Of a DNA stretch of 64,000 nucleotides, positions 14,082 through 63,729 are shown piece by piece (the stretch's first letter is position 1; every line of letters starts with the position of its first letter). The notes below the pieces were generated by a model, which had not been told where the DNA came from, ran no database searches, and saw only the letters and a list, made by a program, of their open reading frames with translations. A program made the position numbers and the translations under genes. Origin of the DNA: Thelonectria olida (taxonomy: Eukaryota; Ascomycota; Sordariomycetes; Hypocreales; Nectriaceae); contig JAGPYM010000069.1 in assembly GCA_020736575.1 (NCBI GenBank), positions 1-64,000 of the forward strand. Direction: 5' to 3'.

Positions 14082-15315
14082 GACATACGCATATACTTCA
14101 CAATCTGTTCTGCTGCCTTTCTAGAAATCATTGCCGTGTTGCTTGAGGTTATAGTCTGATGAACAGAAACTTTAAAATATCAAGCCGCCGGTTTAGCGAC
14201 CTGGGGTAGTGCTTGATCACGTTATGGGGGTATTATAGCCATTCTAGATACACGACCTAACGCTTCAGCTTCCAATGTCATCGAGAGGATTGAAACTCTA
14301 TGAGACTTTTAACGTATGCGATGTGTGGTTGACTGTTTATTGGATATCCCCAATATGAACTCCCTTATAGTGGGAAGCTCAAAGCCAAACCTTTCATACA
14401 TGCAACATATCATCATTTTTACGACACAACCTAAGACTTAGCTCGGAGAGGCGATCCGATGAATCCGTGAGATCACTACCTCCAAAATTTCTTACATCAT
14501 CAGTGCCATTTACATACAAATGGGGAGCATGACCGTGCCCGATCACCCACGCTTGATTCTCTCCCGTAGGCCCATTTCCATCAGCTTCTTTCCCGGAGTC
14601 TCTGAATGAGCTTTACGGATTCTTACAGTACACGCTTCCGTCTCTTCTCTGTATTGTTAGGTTAATACGCCTTTTAATGCAGGTACTCCCCGCCAGCTCA
14701 CTCAATAATTGCTTTAAGCTAGAATATTAATTGCCTCCCTTCCAACCCTTTCGGTCTATCCGCGCCTATTCTTTCTTTAGACTCAGAATTCATCCTAGTC
14801 GAGGCACTATATATGATGCATAGCCCTGCGGTGAAACATAAAGCATAGGTAACTTAGAGGTCCAATAAATGACACCGAGCCATTTTCGGCTATCCTTAGG
14901 CCAGGACTTGCCTGACTCCACTAGCCGAATGCTGTTCCCAGACACTTGCTGTCCTCGGCAGCTGGGTAATCACTCGTCCACAAGTGGCCTGACTTCGGAT
15001 TACCCTTAGGTGCAATACTGTACTATAGTGACCGGTACCGGCTGCGAAGAGTGTCTGGCAAATTGAATTGGATGTCAATTCTCTCTTACTGTACCGTACA
15101 GGTATAGGACTCTGAACACTTGAAGAATAGCCTTCAAGTTAGCTTGCCAATAATACAAACCCCACGAGATTCTGCGGAGAGACGGAAAAACGAAGAGGCA
15201 AAAGCAAAGATTGGACGCTGTAAGGGCTTTTACGAGATCATGGCAAAAGTTGGGAAATGGATATGTACAATAGCAACTAGTGCTCTATTGGTTATAAGCC
15301 ACCGGGCGAGATAAA
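14082..15315. other. Gene-poor stretch
   Basis: About 1.2 kb is AT-rich with no convincing reading frame. It includes one member of a dispersed repeat (15022-15088) and ends in a (TG)n run at about 15316-15333. Confidence 0.5.
15022..15088 (-). repeat. Dispersed 67-bp repeat, copy A
   Basis: This segment is the reverse complement of 46136-46202 with about two mismatches. Similarity stops on both sides, so it is a short conserved piece of a larger dispersed element or a terminal sequence. The element type is unknown. Confidence 0.75.
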
Positions 15316-15317
15316 TT

Positions 15318-16055
15318 GTGTGTGTGTGTGTGTATCGCGCTACCTTAAAGACGAGGCTGAGCCTTGAGCTGAATGCAGACCATGTCACTCAGGCCATCAA
15401 CACGTGCATCGACTATGAAGTCGCGCACCTCGTATCGCTGAAGGACGACAAATCACTGCAAGATCATGTTCGGGATGAGATGCGACGTAAAGCCCATGGA
15501 ACCTTCCTCTGGGTGGCTTTCGTCGCAAAGGAACTTGAGAACGTTTCTCAAAAATGGAAAGTCTTAAGCGTTCTCAAACAAATGCCGGCCGGCCTGGTGC
15601 CACTCCACAAACGAATGATGCTTCACATTCAGCAACTGCAGCCTCAAGATAGCGAGTTCTGCCGCCTTGTTATTTCGGCGGCAACTGTCGCTTACCGGCC
15701 GCTCCCCTTGTGTGAGCTGGGCGTGCAATCTGGGTTGCCTCGAGATGTCTCCGATGACCTTCGATTTGTGGTAGATGTGTGTGCCTCGTTTCTTACGATC
15801 CGGGATGACCATGTCTATCTCATTCATCAGTCCGTCAAGGGTTTCCTGAAGGAGTCGACTACAATTTTCCAGCATGGATTTGCAGCCGGACATCATACCA
15901 TGTTCTTGAAAGCGATACAGATCACGTCTGATACGTTGCGACACGATATGTACGACTTACACCATCCCGGCACCTCTATCAACGACGTCCGCCAGCCTGA
16001 ACTAAACCCGTTTCTATCGCCAATGGTATTCGGTCTATTCAAGCGTGTCTTCTGA
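15318..16055 (+). pseudogene. NACHT-protein (NLR) fragment, post-NACHT region
   Basis: A ~245-codon frame lacks a P-loop but matches the part that follows the NACHT domain in fungal STAND proteins: RLSLELNADHV, then KAHGTFLWVAFVAKELE, LVPLHKRMMLHIQQL and VYLIHQSVKGFLKE, ending in TLRHDMYDLHHPG. In intact proteins this leads into WD40 or ankyrin repeats; here it stops at 16053-16055. It starts next to a (TG)n microsatellite and the real start is missing. It converges tail-to-tail on the NLR-like gene at 20597-16272. I read it as a remnant of a second NLR. Confidence 0.75.
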
Positions 16056-16271: not shown

Positions 16272-19200
16272 TCATCCGGCAAGGGTGTGCACCTCCGTGC
16301 TGTTCGTGCCGGTGTTGCTCTTCTTGATGGCGACCAGGTCCGGGCGTCCGTCACCGTTCCAATCAGCCATAGCAAAGTCGAACGTGCTATCTGTCTCATG
16401 GAGCGCAGTACCCGTCTGCAGGATGAAATTCCGAAAGTTCGAAGACCCCGAAAGGATGTGCACCTCCGTGCTGTTCGTGCCGGTGTTGCTCTTCTTGATG
16501 GCGACCAGGTCCGGGCGTCCGTCACCGTTCCAATCAGCCATAGCAAAGTCGAACGTGCTATCTGTCTCATGGAGCGCAGTACCCGTCTGCAGGATGAAAT
16601 TCCGAAAGTTCGAAGACCCCGAAAGGATGTGCACCTCCGTGCTGTTCGTGCCGGTGTTGCTCTTCTTGATGGCGACCAGGTCCGGGCGTCCGTCACCGTT
16701 CCAATCAGCCATAGCAAAGTCGAACGTGCTATCTGTCTCATGGAGCGCAGTACCCGTCTGCAGGATGAAATTCCGAAAGACCGAAGACCCTGAAAGGATG
16801 TGCACCTCCGTGCTGTTCGTGCCGGTTTTGCTCTTCTTGATGGCGACCAGGTCCGGGCGTCCGTCACCGTTCCAATCAGCCATAGCAAAGTCGAACGTGC
16901 TATCTGTCTCATGGAGCGCAGTACCCGTCTGCAGGATGAAATTCCGAAAGTTCGAAGACCCTGAAAGGATGTGCACCTCCGTGCTGTTCGTGCCGGTTTT
17001 GCTCTTCTTGATGGCGACCAGGTCCGGGCGTCCGTCACCATTCCAATCAGCTATCGCGAAGTCAAACGTGTTATCGGTATTGTGGAGTGCAGTCCCCGTT
17101 TGCAAAATAAACTTTTGAAACCCCTCAATTTTTGGGAGGGCCTTGAGGCTGATGTACATGCTAACAGCAGCGGAGATGGACTTTTCATTCAGCTCCAGAC
17201 ACAACCTTACTTTCTGTCTAGCTGCTTCCAGGTGCTCCTCGATGTTCGGCAAGTTGCGACTGGAGACGACCCACTTAACACGAGGAGACCCAGCTGACTT
17301 CTCGACAATCAAATCGAGAAGTTGCGGCAGGTCCGTCACGCATTCGTCCAGCGCGTCGATGATCAAGAATGTGCTCTTCAAGTCCGGATCTTCCAGAATG
17401 TTTGCAAAGATCTCGGATAAAGCCACCCAGGCATTCACGTCCTCGAAGAGGCCTTTGCCCGCGTGGTCGTACCTCTTTCGCACGTGCGAGATGAGCGACG
17501 GCTGCTGGTTGACGAGCATGTAGATCAGGCCGCGTAGCACAGCGGTGGCATTGTTGTTGCGCGAGTCAGTGCACTGGCAGAAGAAGTAGGACAGCAGGGC
17601 CGGGTGAACAGTTGACTTGTTCAACTCGTCGATAATACCGCAGAGCAACATGGTCTTGCCCTTGCCTGGACCGCCCTTGATCCAAAGCAGTCTGCTCTGG
17701 TGGTTGTCGCGCCATTGCCGAAAGTCGGGGTTGTCGAGGATCCAATGGTACAAGTCCTTCAACAAGCCGCCTTTGGTCCACTCGATGCGCGTCTTGTCGT
17801 CACGGGGGTCGGACAACCGCAGGTCCTTCAAGCAATTGTCATTCTCCCTCTGAATGACATGTTGAATAGAAGTTTCGTCGTCCAGTTCTGGAACCTGGAT
17901 GATCTCCACGGGACCGAGAAGGGCCAGACAGGTGGGATCTGAGGCCGTGAGAAGAAGGCTCCCTCTCAGCCCTTGTGGTATTAGATTTTCGAAGCTCAGA
18001 TACAGAGCAGTCTGACGTTGTAGGCCGTCCATGACGACCAGCCAATGGCCGTTGAATGTCCAGGTAAGATGACGTAGGAAAAGTTGAACTCTGTTTAAGA
18101 TAGAGCCTGGCCACTCTGGGAAGTCGCCAAACTCTCCTGCTATTGCATTATAAGACTGTTCAATGCTGTTTTCAGTACTTGCATCTACCCAGAACACAGA
18201 ACAGTCTTTAGACTGCTCCCGCATTCTGTGGACGAAAATGCGGGCGATTGACGTTTTCCCCATCCCTTTGGGGCCGATGAGTGCTATTCTCGACTGTTGG
18301 TTGGAGTCCTGGTTGCAGAAAAAGAGAAGATAGTCGAGCTTTTCCAGTATATTCTCGCGGCCAGTAAAATGTGAGGGTGGGGATGGCACGGATATGTCCT
18401 GGACAGAGTCGGCTGTAGTTTGTTAGTCAAGTGGCTCTTGAACAGTGAAAAAGTGAAGATAGCCCTTGGGTGTAGGGCCTCTTACTCTGGTTGATTGGGA
18501 GTCGTTGAGCCTTGGCCACAGCCGCGGAATTCATCTCTTCTACCGCTTCTACCGCCTCTACCGCCAGGTCCTGTATGTCTGGATCCCTCCACCACATGCT
18601 GTCCTGAGATATGAACTTGAGGGTGTCTAGGATTTCTTTAAGCCTACGGGACTTGGTTTGCCAGAGCTCCGTTGCAGCAGCATCTGAATGTAACGGCCGC
18701 TTTAGTCCAGGTTGAAGGAACTTAGTCCCACTAGTCGAGACGAGATGCCAAGCCCTGTCCATCGCGTCTTCAACTTCTTGAATTGTTACGACGGGATACT
18801 CGCGGGCGATGATTGCATCGATACTGTTCGATTGCGTATGTGATAGCAACCGGGATGCCTGAGACGTCTTGCTCCCTGGGTCGTCTGTTTCCCTTGCACC
18901 TTCAGGGAGAGCCCTGAGTGCAAATTCATGCAAGTGTTGCAATATGTGGTCGTCGATCTTCGTATCCATGGATCCGGTGCTGAACTCGCACAGAGGACAA
19001 GAGAGGGGGCCGATTACTCGGCGCTTGTTCAGCTCTGCTAGGATGCCACGCTGATCAGCCGGGATCTCGTCTCCGTGAGCCAGTGAAATGTGCGACTCCC
19101 ATTCCTCAGCATTGTCGAACAGCTGTTGCTCCTCGACGGTAGAGTCTTTACCTTCTTTCACCCCGAAAGCACAGTAATCACAGGTCCAGCGCGTCGTGGA

Positions 19201-20597
19201 ATGCAATTCAAGTGTATGAGCGAGAAGAGTGTTGGCCGTGAGATACATTTCGTCTGGAGTGTCGCAGCCCTCTATTACGCAGGAATATGGAATTATGTCT
19301 TGGACAACGTGCGCTCTATTCAGTAAACCAGTCAGCCGGCTGAATCATGAGCAAATGCGTCGAAAGGGAGCATACTTCCAGCTGTCCTTATGTTTGGACC
19401 TCGAGTATTCCAATGGTAGGACATCGTTGCAGTACGGACATAGCACCGCTCCATCTGATCCAGGATTTGGACAGCCAGGAAAGGCTTGCGAAGATCCTAT
19501 TCTTGTCATTTTGGTGACTGTTGATGAGGCCGGTCTCGTCAATATATGCTTGATATCGAGCTTAGAGCCGACATCGGTAGCCGTAACGAGAGTGGTATGA
19601 GCCACGGACCGAGTGGATTCCCCTGGCGTCGTTTGACGAGGAGGTGTAATGGTAATACTGGGCGTAGGCTGAGACGGGGCGGGGTCAGTATCAACAGTTG
19701 CGGGTTCAACGGCTGCCGGCATGCCTGCATCGACTGCAGGCTCTGGCCGCCCCACCACCGACGTTGGGCGGCTCTTTCTAGTCGGCGATCCGGTGACGAA
19801 TTCGATTCGATTTCTCCTAAGGATGTTGGCGCGAACCATGCGTCGTTGGATCGGAGTTAACCTGTCATAGTCTGATGCTCGCTGCATTTTTTGAACAGCA
19901 GTGAGTTCCTTTGCCTCTGTGTCTTCGAAGGCTATCAAGATGATGGTGGTGAGATGTTTGCGGAATTCTTCAAATATGTTCCCGTCCAGTGCGGCATCTG
20001 CTTTCTCGAACCTGTATTTGTTCCCCGATTTCCGTATGGCCAGGGAGATCCTCTGGAGTTGGCTCAGGATCGTCTTGGCGTACGAAATTTGCTCAGATAG
20101 GATTGGATCTAAAGTCTCATCCCCAGAGGAAGAAGCCGGTCCGCTGGATTTATTCGAGATGGCTTCCCAGGACACATAGCTCTGAGGAGAGTCTGGATCT
20201 GGGTCTCCTGGATCTGACTGGAATTCTTCTCTGATGGTCGCCAAGCCGTCATCAAGCTTCGATTCTTCTGACTATATGTCAATCAAGTGACCGCCAACCA
20301 TGACAGTTCGAACTCACCGACAACCAACTGCTGGCATTTCTTCAGGGCCTCCACGAGGGCTCGGACCAGGCCGCGCACGGCATCGCGCACGTCTGGTCTC
20401 GTCCTCAGGCGATAGTCCAAGGACGACTTGCCGGCACTAGTTGCATTGATGCTAGCGCACCAAAGGTTGAAGTCGCCTTGGGCGGCCCGGATCCATGCCT
20501 GATGGCCTAGCGATGGATTGGCAACGCACTCTGCGAAGACGGCTTTGCACTGCCTGGCGACGCCACAAATCTCGAGGCTGCCCCTAGAGTCGTCCAT
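16272..20597 (-). CDS. NLR-like STAND protein: zinc-finger-like N-terminus, NB-ARC-like, NACHT, FG-GAP repeats
   Basis: Four exons (20597-20318, 20267-19376, 19315-18486, 18412-16272) join across 50-, 60- and 73-nt introns with consistent phases to 1,380 residues. Residues ~1-360 are a helical fungal N-terminus. Residues ~360-450 hold paired Cys/His zinc-finger-like elements (CPYC...H, CDYC...H). A first NTPase follows, with P-loop GPKGMGKTS (~714-722), a Walker-B-like LVVMDGL and sensor-like LLLTASD, resembling NB-ARC. A full NACHT then has WIKGGPGKGKT (~914-921) and LIIDALDEC (~1017-1025). From ~1100 to the end come five 57-residue FG-GAP/VCBS repeats with Ca-binding DWNGDGRPDL loops. STAND proteins oligomerise on ligand detection and activate effectors. 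It is head-to-head with the protease gene and no break is seen. Confidence 0.85.
16286..17118 (-). repeat. Five 171-bp tandem repeats encoding FG-GAP units
   Basis: The motif gtgcacctccgtgctgttcg recurs at 16287, 16458, 16629, 16800 and 16971, an exact 171-bp period. Copies 1-4 are almost identical at the DNA level; the fifth (first translated) diverges at its far end. Each encodes one 57-residue FG-GAP/VCBS unit. The identity suggests recent duplication or gene conversion, as known for repeats of fungal NLRs. Confidence 0.9.
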
Positions 20598-20889
20598 CCG
20601 GGATAGCGGATATGGGGAGCAATGGTTACAGAGCCCTGCGACGGCAGATAGATGAGATGGAGCGTTAGGCTAAAGGATAGGCTAGCGTTGGCGAGGACTA
20701 GCGAAGCTGAGATGGTTTTTGGGCCCCTCCGACTCGGCCACGTGACGATGATGCCTTATCCTGAACCATAACGACGCTGCGCAGCCCCGCCCTTGGCGCC
20801 CTCACCGCCGCCAAAAGCAGGGCTTCAGCGCAGCACACGTCGCGATCCTGACTTCGAAAACGAGCGCCTCCGAAAGAAGACTCGCAGAC
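20598..20889. promoter_or_regulatory. Shared 292-bp divergent promoter, NLR / DUF7580-subtilase
   Basis: The NLR-like gene starts at 20597 leftward and the protease gene at 20890 rightward. This short GC-rich interval must hold both promoters and 5' leaders, which makes co-regulation plausible. No binding site is identified. Confidence 0.55.
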
Positions 20890-23800
20890 ATGGCGTCCAT
20901 TCAGCGGCGGGGGCGTGGAAGCCGCGCCATCACGACAGCAACCCACGAGCCAGCGCGTCGACCTGCGACCCCCAGCCGCAATGCGCACTGGGACCAGGAG
21001 CCGCTCCTGGATAAGGATGCCCTCGTCGCCTTTGCCGCCGAGGCGACCGCGGCCCTCCGCCGGGAGTCTAGCGCCTTGGCCAAACTACGCAGACCGAGCC
21101 CTTTCTTCGCTATACTGTGCTCCCTGTTATCCGACGTGGAAGAGCGTTTAGAGAATGCAGCTTCTGTGACCGAGTCGAAGGTTTCGGAGCTCCTTGCCAC
21201 GCTTGAGAGATTGGCAAAGGCAAGCATCCACTCTGCCTGATCCTTCTCCATATTTCGGTCACGCTGACGGTTCTCCTGCAGTGGCCAAAACCCTTCAAAG
21301 CCCCAACAAGACCCTTCGACCGAAACGCTTATTCTAGACTCATCCACATCCTCGGCGACAGTTCGCAGCTCGCTCGAAGTTGCATCAAGACACTGGCAGA
21401 AGATCCGAGGGCAGTTAATGATCGACAGAAGTTTCAAAAGGCGTTCAAGGCGTTTGCCAACGTCAAGCTCGGACCGCGCGGGCCCAAGCTCTCGGAGCTT
21501 ACCAGGTCGAGCGCGGAATCGGAGTCGAACTCGAACAGCGCTACCGCCCAGTGCCTCCAAAAGCTATACTGGACACTTTGCCAGCTCTGCCGCTGCTCCC
21601 TTGCTGTCGGCGGAGGCGGCTTCAAGGCAAACGTTGTGGTGGACTACGAGGCGCGGCCAGCAGTGGCAGACGACGGCGTCATCATCGAGTCGTTCTTTCT
21701 GCATCGCCACCATACTGGCAACAACGAAACAGGCGAATGGAAGGAGACGCGGATACAGGTGCTACTTGACCAGTAGGCCGCTTCTGCATACCGGAGTGTT
21801 TCGATATCTAACTGACTGTGCTACACCGCGGTCATTGAAAGGTTGGCACTCTGCAATCAAGCATTATACAGATGACTTTCGGCCGAGAGGTTCCTGTGCG
21901 ATGTTCCTTGGAGCATTCTTGGAACTGCCAATGGAATCCTGCGGCCGATTGGACATGCTGAGTGTCCGTCTTTCAAGGCACACGGTGTGCTAGGTACGAC
22001 ATCGAAGACTCAGACAACACTAAAACCCGTGTTCTCCGATCCGCACGGGGTGACAAAAAGATCTCGGACTTTTGCAAACTCCTCCAGTCCCAAGAACTAG
22101 GTTGCTTGAAGCTCAGAGCCTCTAGCGGTGGCCTGTTTGACGACGGCATCGAATTATCCAGAGACGGAATCTCCCTTCAGGCGCCTAGCGTATCCCTTGC
22201 GCGAGTCTTGGCCTCGGCTAGCTTGAACAAAGACTCTCAGCGCAAGTTACTTCTCTCTTATCTTCTTGCAAAAGCGGTCTGGCAGTTCTACGACTCGGAT
22301 TGGATAGCCGAGGCCTGGTCAAAGCAAGAGGTGCAGTTCATGCAGCAACGTATTGACAAGCTGCAGAACAAGGTCCTGCTCAACTACCGACCCTTCATTT
22401 CGGCCGAATTTCGAGACGATGCACCGCCTCAAGGAGCTCCGTCGCTGGAGGGATATGGAGTTGTGGCCAAAACTCCCAAGGGGACTCACATCTTCCCCAA
22501 GATTCTAGCTCTGGGAATTACCCTCCTCGAGATAGAACTGGGCGAGGGCATCGAAAATCGATACGCGAGGGAATTTCTCGATGCGGATGGCCGACCGCGC
22601 GCAAACGCTGCCCACATGACCGCCGGTGACTTCATCACTTCAGACAAGTGGAAGGCCCAGAAGAAGGTCTACCTGCCAGTGAGGCAGGCGATCGAAATCT
22701 GCGTGAAGCCCGACACGGGCCAGCTGGGGACAGATCCCGCGCGTGTGCGCGAAAACTTGCACCGCTGCGTCGTCGCGCCGCTTGGGGCGCTGTTCGGCAT
22801 GGCGTACGACTGCGATGGGTGCCCCGAGAAGTTCGACCCCGGTCCGATGAACTTTGAGTCGTCCGACGAACCCTGCGATGATATCTACTCCGTGCCTGGT
22901 TCGGCTCACATGCGGGAGACAAGTGGTTCGCCCAACTCTCCCTCTGCGCAGCAGCTCGTGGTTGAGTATCCAACAATTTTGCCTGTTATCACAGCTAAAC
23001 TGTACGAAGTTCAAGAGCCTGAGAAACCAGTCGAGAGCGCGAGAGACTGCGAACTTTTCGGCAATGAGAATCAAGAGCCGCCGGATCCCAGGTAAGAAAT
23101 ACACAACAAAAATAAAGCAGATAGACTAACAGGCAGATAGGAAATACGAACAAACCGAGAAATGGGTTTATACGTTCAAAAGGCTGCGAACGGAACACAA
23201 AATTGGCGTTGGCCCCGTAAACCGGATCAAGGTCGCCATTTTGGACACTGGCATCGACATAAAGCATCCGAATATTTATCTAGAGCGCAGACGGATATTA
23301 AAGCACGAATCGTTCATCGACGGCGACGCGACGGTAGACGCATCCGGCCACGGCACCCACATTGCTGGCATCGTGCTCGACCTTACCACCAATGTCGACT
23401 TGTGTATCGCTAAGTTCGTTGATTCCCGAAGATATGGAGACAGTGAAAAAGAGGCCGTGGGGCAAAGAATTGTCAAGGTGAGTCAGCCTCTGGAGGGCAA
23501 TCAAACTTGCGCTGACATGCGGAAGGCGCTACAGCGTGCCAGACTTGACTGGAAAGTCAACATGATATCGCTCTCCTTTGGCTTCAGCAAGGTAGGACCT
23601 AATGACCCGATCCAGAAGGAGATCGAGAAGTGCCTGAATGACAACATCGTCGTCTTTGCTTCTGCTTCCAACGACGGTGGAAACCGGCCTCGCACCTACC
23701 CCGGTAACTACCACCGCGTCCTCTGCATTCACTCGGCCACTGGAGTCGGCGATGGGTCCTCCTTCAGCCCAACCCCGGAGACGGACGCGAGGGACCACAA

Positions 23801-24170
23801 CTTCAGCGCCGTCGGAGAATGTGTGAAATCATGCTGGCCGGTGAAAGAACCCCTTACTGCTGATAAGTATAAGCACATGTCCGGCACGTCGTTCGCAACG
23901 CCGGTGGCTGTCTCGATCGCGGCATTCATGGTCGGTTACATCCAAAGAAAAATGCCCAACTATGATTGGAACGTTGAGCCGCTGAGTCCGGAAGGCATAC
24001 AGATAATTTTTCGGATGATGTCGAGGGGGAACAAGCGGGATGGGTACGACTGGATTAGTCCCCAATGGTTCTTCACTAAAAACATCGAAGGCAAGATACA
24101 GCAGGATTTGATCCAGGAACTACGAGGATATCCCAAAGCCACCGATGCGAAGTCAATGGAAACGAAATAG
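20890..24170 (+). CDS. DUF7580-subtilisin (peptidase S8) protein, HET-Q2-like; one in-frame TGA
   Basis: Best model: exons 20890-21219, 21282-21772, 21862-23091 and 23141-24170, about 1,020 codons. Intron 1 is a GC-AG intron (AAG|GCAAGC). Intron 3 is 49 nt (GTAAGA...GATAG). A 48-nt in-frame stretch, 23478-23525 (AAG|GTGAGT...GGAAG), may be a further intron. The N-terminal ~680 residues match the fungal DUF7580 domain (VWQFYDSDWI...WSKQEVQFM, GTHIFPKILALGITLLEIELG). The C-terminal S8 domain has all catalytic elements: Asp in VAILDTGID (~719), His in SGHGTHIAG (~754), oxyanion Asn in ASASNDGG and Ser in SGTSFATPVA. The exon 2-3 junction is weak, and this model keeps a TGA at 21959-21961: a premature stop or a missed intron. 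The gasdermin-like gene follows 446 bp downstream. Confidence 0.8.
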
Positions 24171-24616
24171 AATCTTCTATTGATGGCGCGCATCTCCCTA
24201 GCTTGAGAAACCGGCTTAGACTGTTATGAGTTGATTGCCTAGCAAGCTTGAGTTTGTAACTGTGGACACGGGAGTTGTTGAGTCCAAAGTGCGACTTTCT
24301 CGCGAGCCGTTTCACTTGGAAAGAATTCCGCAAAGACAAGATCCCGAGTGTGCGAGCCCGAGTATGGTTTAGATATTCGTCTGGATTATGGTCTGGAGCA
24401 ATGCTAAGAAGACGGGCCTGTTCGTGGGTTCAGCCCGCCGCCCGCAAACCTAGGCAATCGCCATTGGCCAGAGTACCCGACGGCGCCATCTCAGCCGCAA
24501 GGCGGGGTAAAGGACATCACACATCGAATGCGAAGGGTCACGGGCCCTCTTCCCCTTGAGTCTGGCTCCGAACTAAAGCATAGCATCAACGACCAAACCG
24601 ACAGCTCCCACGAGAC
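24171..24616. promoter_or_regulatory. Intergenic region between protease and gasdermin-like gene
   Basis: A 446-bp gap holds no gene and by position contains the protease 3' end and the gasdermin-like gene's promoter. No specific site is recognised. Confidence 0.4.
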
Positions 24617-25453
24617 ATGAAGGGAGACCCGGAGTTCGTCATCCTAAAGTACCAGGCGTGGATGGAGGCCGCCGAGTTCGAGGACGTGATCCTCGGCGCC
24701 ATCGTCCGCGAGCCGCTCAGCCCGTCAACCAACTACGTGCCCGACGCACCCCGCAAGTACGTGACGCACGAGCACCAGACCGGCACGGCTACCGACTTCG
24801 TGCTCGCCGAGTCCGGTGCTTCCGCGACCGAACTAGTGGCCTCGCTCAAATCCATCGGCGGGTTCTCGGTCAGCGGCAACCGTGAAGAGAGTATGTACCT
24901 GGCTGGCAAGTTCATCCGTTACAAGCGCATCCGGCAGCTCGACCGCTTCTGGGCGAAGCTGCTCGAGGACGAAGATGTCAAAGCGACAGCGCCCAGGTGG
25001 ATCTCCCTCTTCAACACGTGGCCCGTGTGCCTCGTGGTCGGCATCATGGTGTGCGAGGACGTCGAGCTGTCTATGGAAGGGGCGCAGTCACGCAAGCTAG
25101 AAGGCAATGTCGAGCTGCCGATTGGGCAGATCACACTCGCCGCCGGCGCGCCGAACCCGGTCGGCGACAAGGTCGACCCGCAGGTCAAGCTGGCGTCGGC
25201 CAAGCAGACTGCAACCATCTTCAGGGCCAATATGGGCAAGAGTAGCATCTTTGCCGTCGAGCTGCGGAAAGTGACGACAGATTTAATTAGGTGGAAGCTG
25301 CTACAGCTGAAGAACGAGGGGCCTGGTGTGGATAACACGCGGCTTGCCAGCGACGAGTCGGACGACGAACACTATCAGGACCAGCCTGTGGCTGGCGAGA
25401 ACATGATTCTCGACGAGTTTAGCCCCGATGAGTACGAAGATATGGTAGGCTGA
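24617..25453 (+). CDS. Gasdermin-like pore-forming protein (HET-Q1/RCD-1 type)
   Basis: A single intronless frame encodes 278 residues. The segment order fits fungal gasdermin-like proteins: an N-terminal FEDVILGAIVREPLSPSTNYVP, a basic stretch (KFIRYKRIRQLDRF, ~98-111), a strand pair centred on WPVCLVVGIMVCEDVELS (~135-152), a Gly/Ala/Pro-rich loop and a last strand (SIFAVELRKVT, ~210-220). Known family: gasdermin N-terminal domains insert into membranes as beta-barrel pores once a C-terminal segment is cleaved, killing the cell. Here the C-terminal ~45 residues (233-278) are highly acidic, fitting an inhibitory tail. The length is near the ~280 residues I recall for HET-Q1. A subtilisin gene lies immediately upstream, the known partner arrangement. 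The call is from pattern recognition without alignment. Confidence 0.72.
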   Translation: MKGDPEFVILKYQAWMEAAEFEDVILGAIVREPLSPSTNYVPDAPRKYVTHEHQTGTATDFVLAESGASATELVASLKSIGGFSVSGNREESMYLAGKFIRYKRIRQLDRFWAKLLEDEDVKATAPRWISLFNTWPVCLVVGIMVCEDVELSMEGAQSRKLEGNVELPIGQITLAAGAPNPVGDKVDPQVKLASAKQTATIFRANMGKSSIFAVELRKVTTDLIRWKLLQLKNEGPGVDNTRLASDESDDEHYQDQPVAGENMILDEFSPDEYEDMVG

Positions 25454-29047: not shown

Positions 29048-29238
29048 TGTTACACTATTGAATGAGCAACCTGATCTTGACAAATCATACGACCTCGAGC
29101 CAATAAAAAAAAAAAAACTCTTCTAGCAGGCATCGCCTAACGAAGACAAGAGGACTCTCCAAGCCTCGACCTGAAACCTGTCGAAAACTGTCTCTCCCCC
29201 CCCGTACCTTGATCATCAGCCTCTTAGGAATATTCACC

Positions 29239-32200
29239 ATGTCCCTTTCCAAGGAATCGCTCAACCTCGCTAGCAATTCAAGCGCCATTCCAAAGCTGGA
29301 GCAAACCAGCCAGTGGCTGACATGGAAGAGAGAAATGCTGGACCTACTGGACATGTGCGGATACGGAGACCTCTTGACCAGGAACGCTCAACCACCAGAA
29401 GAAGGGAGCGACCTCATAACACAGATTGAGACATGGAGGAGCCGTCAGGATCGAGCATGCGGCGCCATCCGAAGTCGGCTCGGCTACAACGCCCGAGTAT
29501 TCACCACGGGGATCCTAACGGCACAGGGCATGATCAATCACCTTGAAACCCGTTACCGCCCCGTTGGAAGCGCCATCTTTCAAGAGCTCGACCGGAGATA
29601 CCAAGAACTCACCATTGACTCTTGTGATTCGGTTATGGAATATGCAAACAAGCTTCGTCAAGTTAGGGCTGAACTCGTGGAGATGGATGAAATCTGCCAG
29701 ATTGGGGAACCACACTTTGTCAACAAGTTCCTCTGCGGACTTGGTCCAGACTATGAAGTCTTCCTCACTGCTTTCAATCAGAACCATAACATCCTTCCTA
29801 TCCGAGATCCAAACAATCGCAACGTTATCCTCAAAGAGGCCGTTACGTTCGAAACTGCTATCTTTGCCGCATCCCAAGAAGAGGACAGACAAAGAGGAGC
29901 CACTGCAAGGATTGCACATAGAGCCATGGTGGCCCAGGATACCTTAGGTTGTGGACACTGTGGAAGAAAAGGGCACAACAAGTCAACTTGCTGGAAACTT
30001 CACCCGGAACTCAGAAGAAAGCATGAAAAGACGGCTCACGAGAGACGACAACGAAAAACGCAGAGACGAGAGAAGGAAAAGGAGAAGACGAATGATGAAC
30101 CGGAATCTGCTACGGCTGTGACTCCTGCATACCTCCAACCCGACCAAGCGAGACTTGCTCTTTGGCAAAATGACTTCCAAGGTCACCTTGGATTAATTGG
30201 CTCGTCATTCGGACTCTCTGGATCTCAGGCATCCCCCCAAGCCCGGGCCCTCGAACGGATCCATGTCTTGGATAGTGGTGCCTCTGCACACATCTTTTGT
30301 CGATCTGCGAACTTTACAGTTCTTCACAAGTACCAGGGACTCCCGATCAATGGCATTGCAAACGCAACAGTTATGCCAGGAGGACGTGGAACCTACTCCC
30401 TCCGAGTGCAAGGACCCAAGGGGCCACAGAATGTTAGTCTCGATAGCGCTCTGTATGTTCCGGAAGGATACTCGAACCTACTGTCCGTGTCAGCACTGGA
30501 GAAGAATGGGGCAGAAGTTCTTTTCCGAGATGGGAAAGCAGTGGTCAGAAACAAAGGAAAAGTCGTCCTCACTGCAACAAGGATCTCTGGCGTCTATGTG
30601 GTCGACGAAGCTGAGGAAGATCACTTTCAAACCGCTTTGGCCTCCTTTTCAGTGGGAGACCCTCGGCTGCATCTTTGGCACGAACGACTCGCACACTTGG
30701 GAGAGAGAAATATTAAGAGACTGATGAAGATGTCTACTGGAATTCGACCGGACGAGTCTACATCAAACCCATGTGGAGCTTGCGTGCAAGGCAAACTCAA
30801 GGAATGCCCCCATGTTCGACCGATCAAGAAAGGAACTTACCCCCTGGAGTGTATCCATGCGGACATTGCCGGCCCCTTCCCGGAAGTGGGAGTAGACGGG
30901 AGCCGGTACTGGGCCTGTTTTATTGATGACTTTACTCAAATGTCCTGGGTATATCCAATCGAAGAAAAGTCAGAGTTCGAAGAATGCTTCCAGCATCTGT
31001 TGGAGCGGTTCGAAAGACCGGAAAGACGATGCCACTTCCTGCATCTCGATCGAGGAGGAGAAAATCGAAGCCACATCCTGATTGTGTTCTGCCGGGACAG
31101 AGGAATTCATCTCTCGTACACAGCGACAGAGCAGCACGAACAAAATGGATTGGCAGAGGTTCTCAATCGAATCATTATGGAAAAGCTCACGCCCACACTG
31201 GTCAAATCCGGACTTGCTTTGAAGTGGTGGCCATACTTTCTCAAGGCAGTGAACCACATCCGAAATCTCTGTCCCACGGCGAGCATCTCCACCACTCCAT
31301 ACCAAGCCTGGTATGGAGATGTTCCTGATCTCAGCCACCTGCGAATCCTTGGCTCACGAGGATGGGCTCTACTTCCATCTTCTAAACGAAAGAAGATGCA
31401 ATCCAGGAGCACTCCCTGTCAGCTTCTCGGCTATCAGGGTAGTACGAACTATTTTCTTCTTGACGAAAGGGGACGAGTCTTTGTGTCTAACAATGTCGTC
31501 TTCTCTGAAAACATCAAAAGTGTCGAACCAACACTCGACAATCTCACGCATCAGATGAGTGACCAGAGACCATCGCAACGACGACGGGTAGACAGAGAAC
31601 AGAACACCGACGTGGAAAATCCTATCATTCTAGAACCGTCGCCGCTTCCGATCGCGTCAGGAGAGGCAAATGGAACCGAGGAGATTGGCCGTGGAGAGGC
31701 GACCTCGGATGAGTCCTCAGTGGGAAATCCAGGATGGGATCCGGACCAAGAGTCAACCAGATCGAGTATCCATGTTGCCACAGACGAGCACGAAGTGCCA
31801 CCGGAAGCAACAGAACGGCACGCAGAGTCTCGGCTGCCCGAAAGATCGACCAGAGGACAGCTGCCATCGAGATACATACTGGCCAGCACAAACTTCGCCT
31901 TCCTCGCAACGATTGCAAGACAACTGCACCTAGTTGCTCGCGACTTCGACCAGTCAGAACCAAGAACCTTCAAGGAAGCCACTCAGGGTCCTCATGGAAG
32001 ACTCTGGTGGGGAGGACTGAAGGATGAACACGGATCTCTAATCGAGAATGGTGTCTGGACCCTAGTTACGCTTCCATCAGGACGAAAGGCCCTTCGAGGC
32101 AAATGGGTGTTCAAGCTCAAACGAGGGAAAAAGGGGGAGGTTCTGCGGTACAAAGCCCGCTTTGTCGTGAGAGGTTTCGAGCAAAGGGAAGGAATTGACT

Positions 32201-33507
32201 TCAACGAAACCTTCGCCTCTGTTGTCAAGCCGATGAGCTACAAGATGATATTTGCCATCGCGGCGGCACTCGACTTGGAACTGGAACAAATGGATGTCAA
32301 GACAGCCTTCCTCTACGGCCTCGTAACTGAGGAGATATACGTGGAACAACCCGAAGGATTCGACGATGGAAGTGGGAGAGTCTGTAAGCTCCTGAGAGCA
32401 CTATATGGACTGAAGCAAGCTCCGAGAGTGTGGTACGAGACCATCTCGACCTTCCTCGAGACGCTCGGGTTCAAGCCCTTACTTTCAGACATGGGGGTCT
32501 TCGTGAAAGGTCACACGTTCATTGCGGTGTATGTGGACGATCTGCTTATTGCTGGACCCTCCAAGGACGAGATCGTAGCAGTCAAGCAAGCTCTGTGCAA
32601 CAAGTTCAAGATGACAGACCTGGGCCCATGCAGATATTACCTAGGCATGTCCTTGAGAAGAGACAGGGCGAACCGATCGATTTCCTTGTCGCAGACAACG
32701 TACCTGGAGAAAATACTTCGAGACTTTGGAATGGATCGATGCGCCCCTAATGCCACACCAGTTGCCACAAGCAAATTCGGCGAACCAGACTCCGACTACA
32801 AGGCAACCGATGAACTCAAGCAGTGGTATGCAAAGGCGATTGGATCCCTGATGTATCTCATGCTTGGGACGAGACCCGACATTGCCTTTGCCGTCTCTCT
32901 ATGCAGTCGACACCTGGGAAACCCAACCAACGAACATCAGACCGCTGTCAAGCGTATCTTTCGATATCTCAAAGGATCGCAAAATCTGGAACTGATGTAC
33001 CAAGGAAAGCTGCAACCTCTTCTCGGCTACACCGACTCGGATTGGGCGGGAGATCTGGAGAGTCGAAAGTCAACGTCTGGATACGTGTTCAACCTTGGCA
33101 CGGGCGCTATTAGCTGGAGCTCGAAGAGACAAAGGACTGTTGCCCTGTCCTCATGTGAAGCAGAATACATGGGGCAAACGGGAGCAGCGAAGGAAGCAGT
33201 CTGGTTGCGAAGCCTTCTCCAGGAACTGTTGAAAGAATACAGGGAGGTCCCAGAACTGAAGACAACTGTGATCTTTGGGGACAACCAGGGAGCGATCGCA
33301 ATGTCGAAGAATCCCCAGTTCCATGCAAGAACCAAGCATATTGATATTCAACATCATTACTGCAGGGAGAAGGTCAATGATGGAACCGTTGACTTCCAGT
33401 ACATTCCAACAGGCAAGCAGGTCGCTGACGGGCTGACGAAGGCTTTGCCGAAGGATCGATTCTTACTATTTCGGGAAGCATTGGGTCTCAAAGAACGACG
33501 ATTGTGA
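29239..33507 (+). CDS. Copia Gag-Pol polyprotein (intact)
   Basis: One unbroken frame of 1,422 residues from the ATG at 29239 (chosen over one 10 codons upstream for its CACCATG context). Domains in order: a UBN2-type Gag with a CCHC knuckle CGHCGRKGHNKSTC (~238); aspartic protease LDSGASAH (~344); integrase with an HHCC zinc region (HLWHERLAHLG...CGACVQGK) and DDE residues in HADIAGPF (~540), HLDRGGEN (~603) and NGLAEVLNR (~637); reverse transcriptase with MDVKTAFLYG and YVDDLLIAG (~1098); RNase H with TDSDWAGD (~1265) and SSCEAEY (~1302). The protease-integrase-RT-RNaseH order defines Ty1/copia. Gag and Pol are in one frame, so the Gag:Pol ratio must be set otherwise than by frameshifting. 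Confidence 0.95.
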   Translation: MSLSKESLNLASNSSAIPKLEQTSQWLTWKREMLDLLDMCGYGDLLTRNAQPPEEGSDLITQIETWRSRQDRACGAIRSRLGYNARVFTTGILTAQGMINHLETRYRPVGSAIFQELDRRYQELTIDSCDSVMEYANKLRQVRAELVEMDEICQIGEPHFVNKFLCGLGPDYEVFLTAFNQNHNILPIRDPNNRNVILKEAVTFETAIFAASQEEDRQRGATARIAHRAMVAQDTLGCGHCGRKGHNKSTCWKLHPELRRKHEKTAHERRQRKTQRREKEKEKTNDEPESATAVTPAYLQPDQARLALWQNDFQGHLGLIGSSFGLSGSQASPQARALERIHVLDSGASAHIFCRSANFTVLHKYQGLPINGIANATVMPGGRGTYSLRVQGPKGPQNVSLDSALYVPEGYSNLLSVSALEKNGAEVLFRDGKAVVRNKGKVVLTATRISGVYVVDEAEEDHFQTALASFSVGDPRLHLWHERLAHLGERNIKRLMKMSTGIRPDESTSNPCGACVQGKLKECPHVRPIKKGTYPLECIHADIAGPFPEVGVDGSRYWACFIDDFTQMSWVYPIEEKSEFEECFQHLLERFERPERRCHFLHLDRGGENRSHILIVFCRDRGIHLSYTATEQHEQNGLAEVLNRIIMEKLTPTLVKSGLALKWWPYFLKAVNHIRNLCPTASISTTPYQAWYGDVPDLSHLRILGSRGWALLPSSKRKKMQSRSTPCQLLGYQGSTNYFLLDERGRVFVSNNVVFSENIKSVEPTLDNLTHQMSDQRPSQRRRVDREQNTDVENPIILEPSPLPIASGEANGTEEIGRGEATSDESSVGNPGWDPDQESTRSSIHVATDEHEVPPEATERHAESRLPERSTRGQLPSRYILASTNFAFLATIARQLHLVARDFDQSEPRTFKEATQGPHGRLWWGGLKDEHGSLIENGVWTLVTLPSGRKALRGKWVFKLKRGKKGEVLRYKARFVVRGFEQREGIDFNETFASVVKPMSYKMIFAIAAALDLELEQMDVKTAFLYGLVTEEIYVEQPEGFDDGSGRVCKLLRALYGLKQAPRVWYETISTFLETLGFKPLLSDMGVFVKGHTFIAVYVDDLLIAGPSKDEIVAVKQALCNKFKMTDLGPCRYYLGMSLRRDRANRSISLSQTTYLEKILRDFGMDRCAPNATPVATSKFGEPDSDYKATDELKQWYAKAIGSLMYLMLGTRPDIAFAVSLCSRHLGNPTNEHQTAVKRIFRYLKGSQNLELMYQGKLQPLLGYTDSDWAGDLESRKSTSGYVFNLGTGAISWSSKRQRTVALSSCEAEYMGQTGAAKEAVWLRSLLQELLKEYREVPELKTTVIFGDNQGAIAMSKNPQFHARTKHIDIQHHYCREKVNDGTVDFQYIPTGKQVADGLTKALPKDRFLLFREALGLKERRL

Positions 33508-33511
33508 GAAC

Positions 33512-34335
33512 ATGCAAAGATGGGCATGGATGGGAGACCTACCATGGACAGACAGAAGACCCACAGATCCAAGATTGCACTGAAGCGTGAGGAAGGTGCA
33601 AAGATGAGTTGGAGTGGGAGATCTTCTACGGATTGAAGAAGACCCACGACCTCAAGATTGTACTGAGCGTGAGGAACGTGCAAAGATGGACTGAAGTGGG
33701 AGACCTACCATGGACAGAAGACCCTTGGACTCAAGATTGCACCTGACTTGAAAAGAGCGTGTAAAAATGGGCTTTAGTGGGAGATCCTCTATGGAGGGAA
33801 GAAGACCTATAAGTTCAAGATTGCACTGGACTGAGAGGAAAGGTGCAAAGATGAGCTTTGGTGGGAGATCTTCTGCGGGTAGAAGAAGACCTACGATCCC
33901 AAGATTGCATGGACTCGTGAAAAGGTGCAAAGATGGGCCTCAGCGGGAGATCTTCTGTGGACAGAAGAAGACCCATGGGCTCAAGATTGCACTGGACTAG
34001 GAAAAGGTGCAAAGATGAGCTCAAGTGGGAGATCTTCTATAGTTAGAAGACCCATGGGTTCAAGATTGTACTGCACTGGGAAGAAGGTGCAAAGATGAGC
34101 TTAGAGGGAGATCTTCTGCGGACAGAAGAAGACCTGTGGTCCCAAGATTGCGCTGTATTGAAAAGAGCGTGCAAAGATGGGCTTCAGTGGGGATTCCTCT
34201 GTGGACAGAAGAAGACCCATGGTTTTAAGATTGCACTACCAAGAAGAAAGGTGCAAAGATGAACCTAGGTGGGAGATCTTCTGCGGATAGAGGAAGACCC
34301 ACTGTCCCAAGATTGCATGGAGCTGTCAAGAATTT
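33512..34335 (+). repeat. Tandem ~80-bp repeats between pol and the 3' LTR
   Basis: About ten diverged units of 79-85 bp, each with 'gtgcaaagatg', 'gtgggagatcttct', 'gaagaagaccca' and 'caagattgcact'. Units begin near 33516, 33598, 33678, 33757, 33842, 33926, 34007, 34088, 34168 and 34251. Antisense frames through them are by-products of the repeat. The role is unknown. Confidence 0.85.
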
Positions 34336-38775: not shown

Positions 38776-39400
38776 CTAGAGTGCCGGTTGGCCGCTGCCC
38801 CCGCCATCAGTATCACGTCGAATCATTCTGTCCATCTGCACGATGCGATTTGACATCCCGCGAATTTTAGCTGCTAATCTTCCCAACGCTTTTCGTCTGC
38901 CTGGCTCGGGCTCTTTGGTTCTGTTCATGGACATGTTTGCTGATCCAGTTAGACTATCCTCAGCAGATAATAGGGAGTAAAAAGTTGTAATACCTTGAAT
39001 GCGTTGTAAGGATTCTGTGTTGCGCACAATAATGGATGATTTGGGATGATGAGATCCCAGGACTGTTTGGAAACCATGTAGCGCCCGCTCATACATCTCC
39101 TCTGCCTCATTGAACTTGCCTTGGTCCGAGTAGAGGAGTCCCAAGTTGTTGACCGTATTGAGAGTCGACGTATGATCGGGCCCAAGCGCCTTCTCCTTGC
39201 CTTCCAACGCCCCTTCATACATCTCCTCTGCCTCCTTGAACTTGCCTTGGTTCGAGTAGAGGAGACCTAGCATATGTAAAGAGGATATTGCCGACTCATC
39301 CCCATATGCCAAGTCCTCTGAGCTACCTCTCGCACCCACCCCGCACATCTCTCTGCGTGTGGGAGAAGGTTCTGCTGGGGCACCCAATACTCCCTTACTC
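38776..39400 (-). pseudogene. TPR (kinesin-light-chain type) NLR C-terminus, truncated by a mariner element
   Basis: The minus-strand frame holds two clear TPR units (LLYSNQGKFKEAEEMYEGAL...LGPDHTSTLNTVNNLG; LLYSDQGKFNEAEEMYERAL) and a basic C-terminus after a possible intron (GTATTA...GTCTAAC...ATCAG, about 38994-38942). These repeats form the sensor part of fungal NB-ARC/TPR or patatin/TPR proteins. Upstream, the frame meets the left end of a Tc1/mariner element at 39401, so the N-terminal NTPase part is separated or lost. The NB-ARC piece at 42140-41620 on the same strand could be its displaced upstream part, but the repeat types differ. Confidence 0.65.
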
Positions 39401-40760
39401 CAGTGGGTCAGAAAAGTTCCGAGGAATTCCGCAATCCCGCTCCTCAACACCAACATACTCAATATCACACATCAACTTCAATCGCATTTATCTCTATCAG
39501 TTTTCATTATGCCGCGGTCAGGGCCGAGTCATTCTCCTCACAAGAGAACAAGGATTGTAATGTCATATTTTTTAGGCAAGACTGCGCGCATGATTGGGGT
39601 CGAAGAGGGCATTTCCAACCGAGCTGTCTACGCGATTGTTGGGCGTTACCGGGACCAAAAGAGTGCACAAGATCGACCTCGCTCAGGGCGGCCTTCATCA
39701 TTAACAGAACGCGATAAAAGACATATCTTTATACTCACCAATACCGACCCTTTCGTACAGCGTAGGGGTTTAATCGACCAGGCCGGCCTGAACTGTTCAA
39801 TAACGACTATAACCCGGTACCTTCGAATGGAGCACATTGAACACTGGACTGCCCTGCGGCGGCCCAAATTGACGCCAGAAATAGCCCGCATGCGGCTTGA
39901 TTTCGCGAGAAGCTATTCAGAAAAGCCGGAAATCTTTTGGAAGGTCTGTATTTTTACAGATGAAGTCACAGTTGTCAGGGGACAAGGCGAGAGACAGAAG
40001 TGGGTTTTCTGCCGAAGGGTGCGACTTCTGAACTCCCTTATTCCTCCACAACTAATAGAGATACAGGGAGAGCGGTTATATCCTAAGATTGTGCAGCCAC
40101 GAGAGAAGCTGTCACGACATTCTCAGATGTTTTGGGGCGGATTTGCGGGCTTGAGGCGGACCTCTTTGGTGCCCTTGATTGGGGACCCCGAGGCACCTCG
40201 GGGGGGAGTAACAGGCCGCCGAATTCAAGCTTGCATTGAAGAAAACCTCCCAACTATAGCTGAACCCGGCTATACATTCCAGCAAGATAATGCACCCGTG
40301 CATACAGCTGGTATAGTTCAAATCTGGCTGGAAGACTGGGCTGAAGAGAATGGGGTCGCTATCGCCAATTTCCCCCTTATGCCCTGACCTCAACCCCATA
40401 GAGAATATCTCGCCCTTGATAAAAACCCGGATAATTCAGGCACACCCCGAATTAAACGAAATGCCTCGAACGGACAGGACTAAACAGCTGCTTGTGCAGG
40501 CTACTGTTGAAGCCTGGGAGGGCATTGAAGATAGGGTCTTAAACAACCTGTGGAAATCGATGCCCAAGAGGTTGAAGGCCATAATAGAAGCCAAGGGCTC
40601 GTACACCAAATACTAGCCTGTACCAGAAGAAAGCCTGTCTTTTGCTATCATAATTCTATTTTCAATGAATCAATTGACCTTCATTTGGCTGAGAAGTGTG
40701 ACTTCAAAGTTCATGTGTTGGGGGGTGTGGTCATGCATTGGAACTTTTGGGGACCCACTG
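39401..40760 (+). mobile_element. Tc1/mariner element (~1.36 kb), inactive
   Basis: The ends are imperfect inverted repeats of about 20 bp: left 39401-39420 (CAGTGGGTC..AAAAGTTCC) and the right end read in reverse from 40760 (CAGTGGGTCCCCAAAAGTTCC). A TA follows the right end; the left flank is TACTC, so the expected TA is three bases off. It carries one transposase gene with a frameshift. Confidence 0.8.
39509..40616 (+). pseudogene. Tc1/mariner-type transposase, frameshifted
   Basis: From the ATG at 39509 the frame has an N-terminal paired-like helix-turn-helix (GISNRAVYAIVGRY, then the GRPSSLT linker) and a DDE domain: first Asp in FTDEVTV, second in QQDNAPVH, third acidic residue Glu in PDLNPIEN about 34 residues on (DD34E). 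A frame change just before PDLNPIEN (around 40375-40387) ends the first frame at 40386. The second frame (40350-40616) continues the domain to the normal C-terminus. The enzyme would be cut off before its third catalytic residue. Confidence 0.85.
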
Positions 40761-63600: not shown

Positions 63601-63631
63601 GAAAACTTGATCGCGTCGCGTCGGTTACCAA
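60629..63631 (-). CDS. MULE transposase with SWIM finger and AT-hook
   Basis: An unbroken frame of 1,000 residues. The first ~280 residues are Ser/Pro/Arg-rich. A FAR1/WRKY-GCM1-like Cys/His zinc segment follows (YSFQCDRYGEPR, KCGCKWMVIAEA, H...HNH, ~310-370). The MULE DDE domain (~430-640) has the first Asp in VISFDNTYNTNRFKLPLFQ and the second in DVIVTDFDVQMKAALNDQFP, with a CIHHV motif after it. A SWIM zinc finger (CNADCSVSVELGIPCCHKV) follows at ~825-845. The C-terminus has an AT-hook (RRRGRPPGR). No stop or frameshift is seen, so the enzyme could be functional. Confidence 0.9.
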   Translation of the reverse strand: MVTDATRSSFLSIRKLSTPESQPSMIRTFVTSQSESPSSSESNPRCRTRSPSPSDQLRARKRQRQSRQSRFSPPLLANRPRSASSIGTSIGQYYGVGDEDTLGNLFASYPQTFSTTPRPHGSQGLHEPPWELRFDHEIHLSNDFLTQGRRRQRVRIPIPGPETDPLPSSSPPQSAQEQSSPTRAEFQSALKLVREVIGTDRRLTLELARSYERVRQWRERWDYSPLSSDAFESPPPYSPPREPSTQAPSPQETRSSPLRISSSPAPDPIPNPPIPGDPAPSAEALFDLVNTFAKESGFGIVRRNAYSYNGRRMRYSFQCDRYGEPRPSRGTGLRQRRSQKCGCKWMVIAEALEEGKWLLRQHPNPEHSQHNHGRSIRPSAHPSHRRLTTPIRATIESTSRRVGIRARDVRAVVQEQHPESTFTQRDIYNARALINRDKLNGHTPTAALIKLFDEIDIPYVVKWADDEPSRLVGLVWTFPYCLQMWKRFPEVISFDNTYNTNRFKLPLFQATGQTCLGSVFNAAFGLIDNERREGFQFLSESIRQLAEQHSIRQPDVIVTDFDVQMKAALNDQFPDVQQQLCIHHVNSNVLLKSKQKWVKGRSSSSSPDSSDGEESTPQTRAELSPKDRQLVHAPTPEDIPHSYRGVLMMWKLVLFAETEDAHEKAWRNLCREFDDQRAILRYLHGTYMPVRAQWARCFIRKYRNFGIRVTSGTEASNNNIKSYLLNGMSHLYRLVEAMQDMVKDQERDFNDACAADEVLTAREYIGSSSEYLGELRTAISSKGLRLINKQYRLARKAMPTGKNPFPEPLGDCNADCSVSVELGIPCCHKVYSKLGSATPFTKWEVHPRWRLREPSSQDPYRRILDPKIATALRGRPKNTTQAVPARLAIGASSRPNNQPASQGQSGRRRGRPPGRLNKSILARKELEASQQASSQAGTSNQRQTRNQSAIIGAGRNTGVRASGRKTQPSIRRRRSQWELLNSDEEILPSIVVRGDIDSCS

Positions 63632-63729
63632 GGTAAGATTAAGGGAGAGCTAAGCTCGAGGTACTTAGGAAGCTCTGGCAGAATTCTGCCGACACTAACA
63701 AAAACAGAATTGACGAATCAGAGGCCCTA

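Follow-up and report, generated by a model that had tools for sequence, protein, structure and literature searches.

A recurrent zinc-finger receptor and DUF7580-effector gene pair joined to a gasdermin gene in Thelonectria olida, a probable three-protein cell-death module

In the HET-Q1/HET-Q2 system, the gasdermin is activated by the loss of approximately 5 kDa from its C-terminus, as described in the available passages of PMC10197012 and PMC12881547. The accessible part of PMC10197012 places approximately 80% of fungal gasdermin genes near a protease gene and approximately 63% near a gene of the S8 family, and that of a 2025 review states that it has yet to be discovered how the gasdermin-activating proteases of fungi are regulated (PMC12881547). 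Here we describe a locus of Thelonectria olida, in a stretch of 64,000 bp (contig JAGPYM010000069.1, positions 1 to 64,000; referred to as the window), where an NLR-like receptor gene (16272-20597, minus strand), a DUF7580-subtilisin gene (20890-24170, plus strand) and a fungal gasdermin gene (24617-25453, plus strand) lie side by side. A sequence-only reading had proposed these genes as a sensor-protease-pore system, and the coordinates that it gave for all three were confirmed by re-reading the window DNA. All three are intact in sequence, with reading frames open end to end and with catalytic and P-loop motifs preserved. What the present analysis adds concerns the receptor-DUF7580 half as a repeated pair, rather than the linkage of protease and gasdermin.

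Searches of the T. olida genome (Nectriaceae; 52.5 Mb in 165 contigs) with the N-terminal part of the receptor and with the S8 domain returned side-by-side matches on several contigs. The zinc-finger part of one paralogue, used as the query, detected 16 loci, and a search for DUF7580 gave 26 matches. Of the 16 zinc-finger loci, 13 had a DUF7580 match no more than 5 kb away; at 11 of these 13 it lay on the opposite strand with the starts facing each other (contig C24 also has a tandem one), and at the other two (C57:645850 and C14) the only DUF7580 neighbour was in tandem. A 14th pair, on C155, was missed by the whole-genome scan and came from a DUF7580 frame recognized by Pfam in the extracted locus. 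At C94 an S8 domain adjoins the zinc-finger locus with no DUF7580 match, and C57:278285 has neither. Leaving out the window and the query locus, which had prompted the idea, pairing was observed at 11 of 14 loci. Seen from the other side, 15 of the 26 DUF7580 matches lie near a zinc-finger locus and 11 do not. Under random placement the probability of at least 13 pairs among 16 loci is approximately 2e-28, or approximately 1e-11 if a 20-fold local enrichment is assumed.

As a control, 152 NPHP3_N matches were counted in the same genome (150 of 217 candidates scored; some matches fall outside those listed). Among the matches listed, 54 share a contig with a DUF7580 match, two lie within 5 kb of one (one of the two being the window) and three within 6 kb. 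The NLR as such was therefore rejected as the conserved partner of DUF7580. The conserved unit is a zinc-finger receptor with a DUF7580 effector, which the genome contains in at least 14 copies, the locus described here among them; the gasdermin is an additional third component attached to this unit. A literature search returned no description of a zinc-finger/DUF7580 gene pair in the portions of the sources available. The earlier proposal of a common neighbourhood of NLR, protease and gasdermin thus stands in its halves, as relatives keep parts of it: protease and gasdermin occur together in other fungi, and receptor and protease in Trizodia. The trio itself is not a conserved unit.

The best match to the receptor after the window's own protein is from Trizodia sp. 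(64.7% identity over residues 6-1091). A Trizodia DUF7580-S8 match spans 98% of the window protease, and the receptor and DUF7580-S8 genes carry consecutive tags (006157/006158). As the receptor-protease pair is also found in Trizodia, a functional link between the two proteins is plausible. Past residue 1091 Trizodia has the usual post-NACHT region and WD40 repeats, while the window protein runs straight into an array of FG-GAP repeats. Elsewhere in T. olida, zinc-finger frames end in NACHT and DUF7791 (L033), in ankyrin repeats (L047) or in a protein kinase (L037/L038, a single frame of 1145 amino acids). At four loci (L032, L035, L039 and L049) Pfam found no sensor domain in the finger-bearing frame, of which further exons may be missed, and at C94 TPR-like similarity downstream, on the same strand as the zinc-finger frame, marks a candidate fusion.

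The enzyme end varies likewise. An S8 domain follows DUF7580 on the same strand at seven zinc-finger-linked places (the window, two on C57, two on C24, C115 and C155), the spliced model having been built for the window gene, and a nucleoside phosphorylase shares one frame with DUF7580 at C90 and C89. Two DUF7580-nucleoside phosphorylase frames, L039:1574-4588 (minus strand) and C89:470406-471985 (plus strand), are each divergent to a zinc-finger locus. In a tree of 40 DUF7580 sequences (short pieces dropped), those of Curvularia and Fusarium decemcellulare group with that of the window (100/98), and Trizodia comes next (92/90). Among the DUF7580 domains close to the window's, some carry a gasdermin-type S8, those of Trizodia and Curvularia carry other S8 domains, and that of Orbilia a nucleoside phosphorylase. 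The S8 domains of Trizodia and Curvularia, both on long branches, fall outside the gasdermin-linked clade described below, and no gasdermin is therefore predicted in Trizodia; the gasdermin homologue search gave no Trizodia match, though the absence of a match proves little. S8 domains attached to TPR chains in Clonostachys and Penicillium are 61% and 68% identical to that of the window. Domains are thus exchanged at both ends, as the receptor C-terminus and the DUF7580 cargo vary and the zinc-finger and DUF7580 parts are constant.

The receptor gene has four exons on the minus strand (20597-20318, 20267-19376, 19315-18486 and 18412-16272) according to our own splice model. Its product of 1380 amino acids is identical over its full length to the public T. 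olida protein P0082 (B0T10DRAFT_281052). An N-terminal region is followed by a C2H2-like zinc-finger region, an NB-ARC-like NTPase, a NACHT domain and FG-GAP repeats, with Pfam matches to NPHP3_N (E 2.7e-43), NACHT (1.4e-20), AAA_16 (4e-8) and FG-GAP_3 (8.6e-29, in five stretches). The zinc-finger region (18853-19380, minus strand; approximately residues 390-545) crosses the intron 19375-19316 and is the part common to the paired genes genome-wide. The first NTPase, AAA_16/NB-ARC-like, occupies 18006-18368 (minus strand; residues 683-803) with the P-loop GPKGMGKT at residue 714, and the second, NPHP3_N/NACHT, occupies 17256-17747 (minus strand; residues 890-1053) with the P-loop GGPGKGKT at residue 914 and FLIIDALDE from residue 1016. 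Both P-loops are intact. As in fungal STAND receptors, NACHT scores above the cut-off with its motifs preserved; for the other NTPase, AAA_16 is above the cut-off and NB-ARC itself below it.

Where fungal NLRs have C-terminal WD40, TPR or ankyrin repeats, the receptor has five FG-GAP repeats of 57 amino acids (171 bp) each (16272-17132, minus strand). Repeats 2 to 5 are mutually 96-100% identical in DNA, repeats 3 and 4 completely so, and repeat 1 is 84-88% identical to these. Relatives of the repeat occur in unrelated bacterial and fungal proteins. In two Streptomyces proteins (L050 and L054; 83 and 80% identity), a hydrophobic N-terminus leads into five such repeats, which make up nearly the entire protein. 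Counting motifs gave five copies in P0082, P0088 and P0090 and ten in P0084. A prokaryote genome scan with the window's own array alone gave no matches. Repeating it with five aligned two-repeat pieces yielded 30 loci, seven of which (L050, L051, L052, L054, L055, L065 and L068) have five copies by motif count; the other 23 have none to four, with some of these loci truncated, masked or overlooked by the motif. A conserved cassette of 57 or 52 residues (L050-L079) is common to Streptomyces, Methylovulum, cyanobacteria, Aquimarina and others and to fungal proteins. One other FG-GAP receptor was found, the HET-NACHT protein P0086 from a metagenome. FG-GAP repeats are also located inside a 2403-amino-acid open frame of the T. 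olida genome (C83:7971-8636). A PDB sequence search with the array found no propeller and weak matches only (best E 0.069), and from the repeat counts we infer that the array may close into a five-bladed propeller, which would perhaps be sugar-binding or lectin-like. The sensor is similar to a bacterial five-repeat cassette. For the combination of NACHT and FG-GAP in fungi, the literature, as far as its text was available, matched only general work on domain evolution.

The start codons of receptor and protease are separated by 292 bp (20598-20889), the size given before for this divergent arrangement. The protease gene is predicted to have five exons (20890-21219, 21282-21772, 21994-23091, 23141-23477 and 23526-24170, plus strand) encoding 966 amino acids, and the intron after the third exon (23092-23140) has the usual ends. 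The public entry P0202 (647 amino acids) equals this model over its first 596 amino acids, so the first two introns are common to both; it then runs out of frame and terminates before the S8 domain, and the public model is thus without a subtilisin. A single gene in which DUF7580 and S8 exons are fused is favoured, because 26 of 39 protease homologues carry both domains. The Pfam matches on these exons are to DUF7580 (E 4.1e-15) and Peptidase_S8 (E 3.1e-25). DUF7580 (21974-22780, plus strand) models as kinase-like in its predicted fold, and the kinase motifs HRD and DFG are absent in nearly all members. A literature search for DUF7580 found no mention of it. The S8 domain (23142-24074, plus strand; split by a 48-bp intron) has D675, H710, N801 and S874 at the expected catalytic positions, residues whose roles we take to be those known from subtilisin. 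The subtilisin is thus intact, as is expected of HET-Q2-like proteases.

The gasdermin gene starts 446 bp 3' of the protease gene on the same strand and has a single exon encoding 278 amino acids. The public entry P0004 covers just the last 199 amino acids of this frame; the public models of both protease (647 amino acids) and gasdermin (P0004) look mis-annotated. The protein has no Pfam match and 81 homologues at E <= 1e-3, and every homologue with a named organism is fungal. Neither the gasdermin nor the DUF7580 alignment matched anything when viral contigs were scanned. A PDB profile search, Foldseek and VIA-align agree on a gasdermin, so the suggested identity was upheld by structure search, with similarity to RCD-1 and HET-Q1. 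Low model confidence at residues 235-239 and 244-254 gives way to better values at 261-278. A second, strongly diverged gasdermin-like frame adjoins a DUF7580-S8 locus in T. olida (L040:4896-5849, minus strand, contig C9; tblastn E 1.4e-5; hhalign E 3.5e-4, probability 37%). The S8 domain at L040 is sister to the gasdermin-linked S8 clade (100/98), and in one reading frame its stretch is interrupted by two stops, attributable to introns or decay.

The linkage of protease and gasdermin in fungi is already known, and the present data agree with the published clustering. With its 446 bp, the window protease lies within the 10 kb from a gasdermin that delimit HET-Q2-like proteases. Outside T. olida, where linkage was judged by equal contig size and consecutive gene numbers instead of gene order, gasdermin and S8 matches were found on equal-sized contigs in six species (Clonostachys chloroleuca, Ilyonectria robusta, Xylaria intraflava, Cladorrhinum sp., Neopestalotiopsis clavispora and Trichoderma evansii), and bear consecutive gene numbers in two of them (Ilyonectria robusta 08458/08459; Neopestalotiopsis g8322/g8323). 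The alignments comprised the window gasdermin with 53 of the 81 matches and 32 of the 39 protease matches. In an S8 tree of the 43 sequences having the C-terminal half (frames without it were dropped), all seven domains with an assigned gasdermin linkage, including that of the window, group with 11 unassigned ones in a single 18-member clade (100/98). Distances between gasdermins and S8 domains are correlated (r 0.70; 13 of 5040 permutations), which is kept as weak support for a partnership.

Beside the receptor gene lies an inverted, open fragment of another NLR (15315-16055, plus strand; post-NACHT region), with 35% identity to the matching part of the Trizodia NLR and approximately 40% to other NLRs. 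The opposite flank is rich in transposons, with a Copia-type retrotransposon frame (29107-33507), a Tc-type transposase (39260-40387) and a MULE/FAR1 transposase (60629-63649). Approximately ten imperfect 82-bp tandem repeats (33513-34317) directly follow the retrotransposon frame.

Based on the observed genes, domains, fold match, pair recurrence and domain exchange, we consider it probable that a modular receptor/DUF7580-effector pair has here been loaded with a gasdermin-cleaving protease to give a three-protein, inflammasome-like cell-death module. The receptor, with its zinc-finger region, two NTPases and FG-GAP sensor, would control a separate effector in which a kinase-like DUF7580 adaptor is fused to a subtilisin. 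The released subtilisin would trim the gasdermin at its C-terminus, cutting away a short tail at a site that probably lies in the loose stretch 235-262, and the trimmed gasdermin would form membrane pores, killing the cell or the fused hyphal compartment. The receptor/effector half would belong to a wider class of divergent pairs whose sensor and enzyme ends are swapped and whose zinc-finger and DUF7580 parts are matching halves. Cleavage of this gasdermin by this protease is likely. It is somewhat favoured that the receptor physically controls the protease and, to a similar extent, that the system serves self/non-self recognition or defence. Activation of the protease by the receptor is suggested by the recurrence of the pairing and by other fungal receptor-effector neighbours such as NWD2/HET-S.

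Several observations weigh against this module. Standard fungal NLRs have a helical/winged region after the NTPase; in the receptor it was not found, homology to the Trizodia NLR ending at residue 1091. Lacking the region that follows NACHT in Trizodia, the protein is called NLR-like and may not work as a standard NLR. The designation as a STAND NLR-like protein is thus borne out by the NACHT motifs and the repeat array and not by the region behind the NTPase. The full three-gene neighbourhood was seen in the T. olida genome only, gene order elsewhere not being searchable. The mean predicted local distance difference test score (pLDDT) of the gasdermin model is 66.9. Distances between zinc-finger and DUF7580 parts, compared for the seven of the 16 loci having both sequences, were not significantly correlated (r 0.30; 675 of 5040 permutations); as the correlation was strong with Trizodia included (181 of 40320) and gone without it, coevolution was dropped as support. 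Gasdermin-linked S8 domains were not clustered in a label test on the tree (6 changes; 153 of 500 shuffles as low), because sequences of unknown linkage count as unlinked. The gasdermin-S8 correlation may reflect species kinship, which is suspected because the DUF7580 half correlates with both as well. Finally, activation of the partner by the zinc-finger protein might have the opposite sign, that is, restraint.

In an ordinary two-gene gasdermin module, the DUF7580-S8 protease would be its own sensor and the divergent NLR-like gene a mere neighbour in a transposon-rich, NLR-rich genome. Reviews describe gasdermin clusters, in the text available, mainly as two-gene units with the protease protein as the sensor (PMC10197012; PMC12881547), and the transposon genes of the window and the 152 NPHP3_N matches of the genome fit such chance proximity. 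However, Trizodia keeps the receptor-protease pair, and the 13 of 16 zinc-finger loci beside DUF7580 contrast with two listed among the 152 NPHP3_N matches, so we regard a chance neighbour as unlikely. Restraint of the effector by the zinc-finger/NLR protein, acting as a guard, as an antidote or by repressing transcription from the shared promoter, with death following the loss of restraint, would suit divergent genes around a 292-bp intergenic stretch, the conserved C2H2-like fingers and the four loci without a Pfam sensor domain in the finger frame, though exons may be missed there. Against this, the window receptor has two intact P-loops, and the finger region at other loci is joined to domains characteristic of signalling or of cytoplasmic receptors, namely NACHT, ankyrin repeats or a kinase; this explanation, too, is improbable.

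A decaying locus, in which the FG-GAP array replaced the regulatory end of the NLR by an accidental join and left the receptor nonfunctional, would account for the end of the Trizodia homology just before the array, the absent post-NACHT region and the inverted NLR fragment adjoining the receptor gene. It is highly unlikely, given three fully open frames with intact catalytic and P-loop motifs, five in-frame repeats in the array and the metagenomic protein P0086, a further FG-GAP receptor that also has a HET domain.

Under the three-protein module, the receptor that recurs beside DUF7580 proteases is a concrete candidate for their regulator, and at least 14 natural copies in one genome can be compared with one another. 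If the receptor acts on the protease, fungi would possess a relay of three proteins with the architecture of the animal inflammasome but other components. The zinc-finger/DUF7580 pair would also let DUF7580 be read as an adaptor carrying different death enzymes. More tentatively, and with some doubt on our part, zinc-finger receptors and pseudokinase-like DUF7580 effectors in divergent pairs might constitute a two-protein switch in general use among filamentous fungi. Both ends would be exchangeable, the sensor being NACHT, WD40, FG-GAP, ankyrin or kinase, and the enzyme a nucleoside phosphorylase, a gasdermin-cleaving subtilisin or another subtilisin. The Thelonectria copy, with its gasdermin and a bacterial-type five-repeat, perhaps lectin-like sensor, would then be a true receptor-protease-pore relay.

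The locus resembles HET-Q1/HET-Q2 of Podospora anserina in that a gasdermin and a subtilisin-like protease are partners. In contrast to HET-Q2, compared here by its description, the T. olida protease has DUF7580 and faces a separate NLR-like gene, and in Podospora, according to the portion of the source available, the two genes are alternatives at one locus. Likewise, the HET-Q2-like proteases are described in the accessible text as gasdermin-linked S8 domains fused to TPR, WD40, ankyrin, NLR or "other predicted kinase-like" parts. In the NLR cases covered by the available passages of PMC10197012, however, the protease is within the receptor, whereas receptor and protease are separate proteins in T. 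olida. The zinc-finger partner of DUF7580 also recurs across the T. olida genome, while the three-gene clusters of HET-Q2-like proteases are known, from the part available, without their gene contents. Pairs of the NWD2/HET-S type share the adjacency of receptor and death effector genes (PMC12881547, as far as accessible) but use short amyloid motifs and target a HeLo pore-former, where T. olida has zinc-finger and kinase-like constant halves and an enzyme as effector. The mammalian NLR inflammasome, in the partial account available, likewise comprises a separate receptor, protease and gasdermin (NLR, caspase-1 and gasdermin D), which in T. olida are known from genes alone. The T. olida protease is a subtilisin and not a caspase, and the kinship found between the two systems is confined to the fold of the gasdermin and the class of the NTPase.

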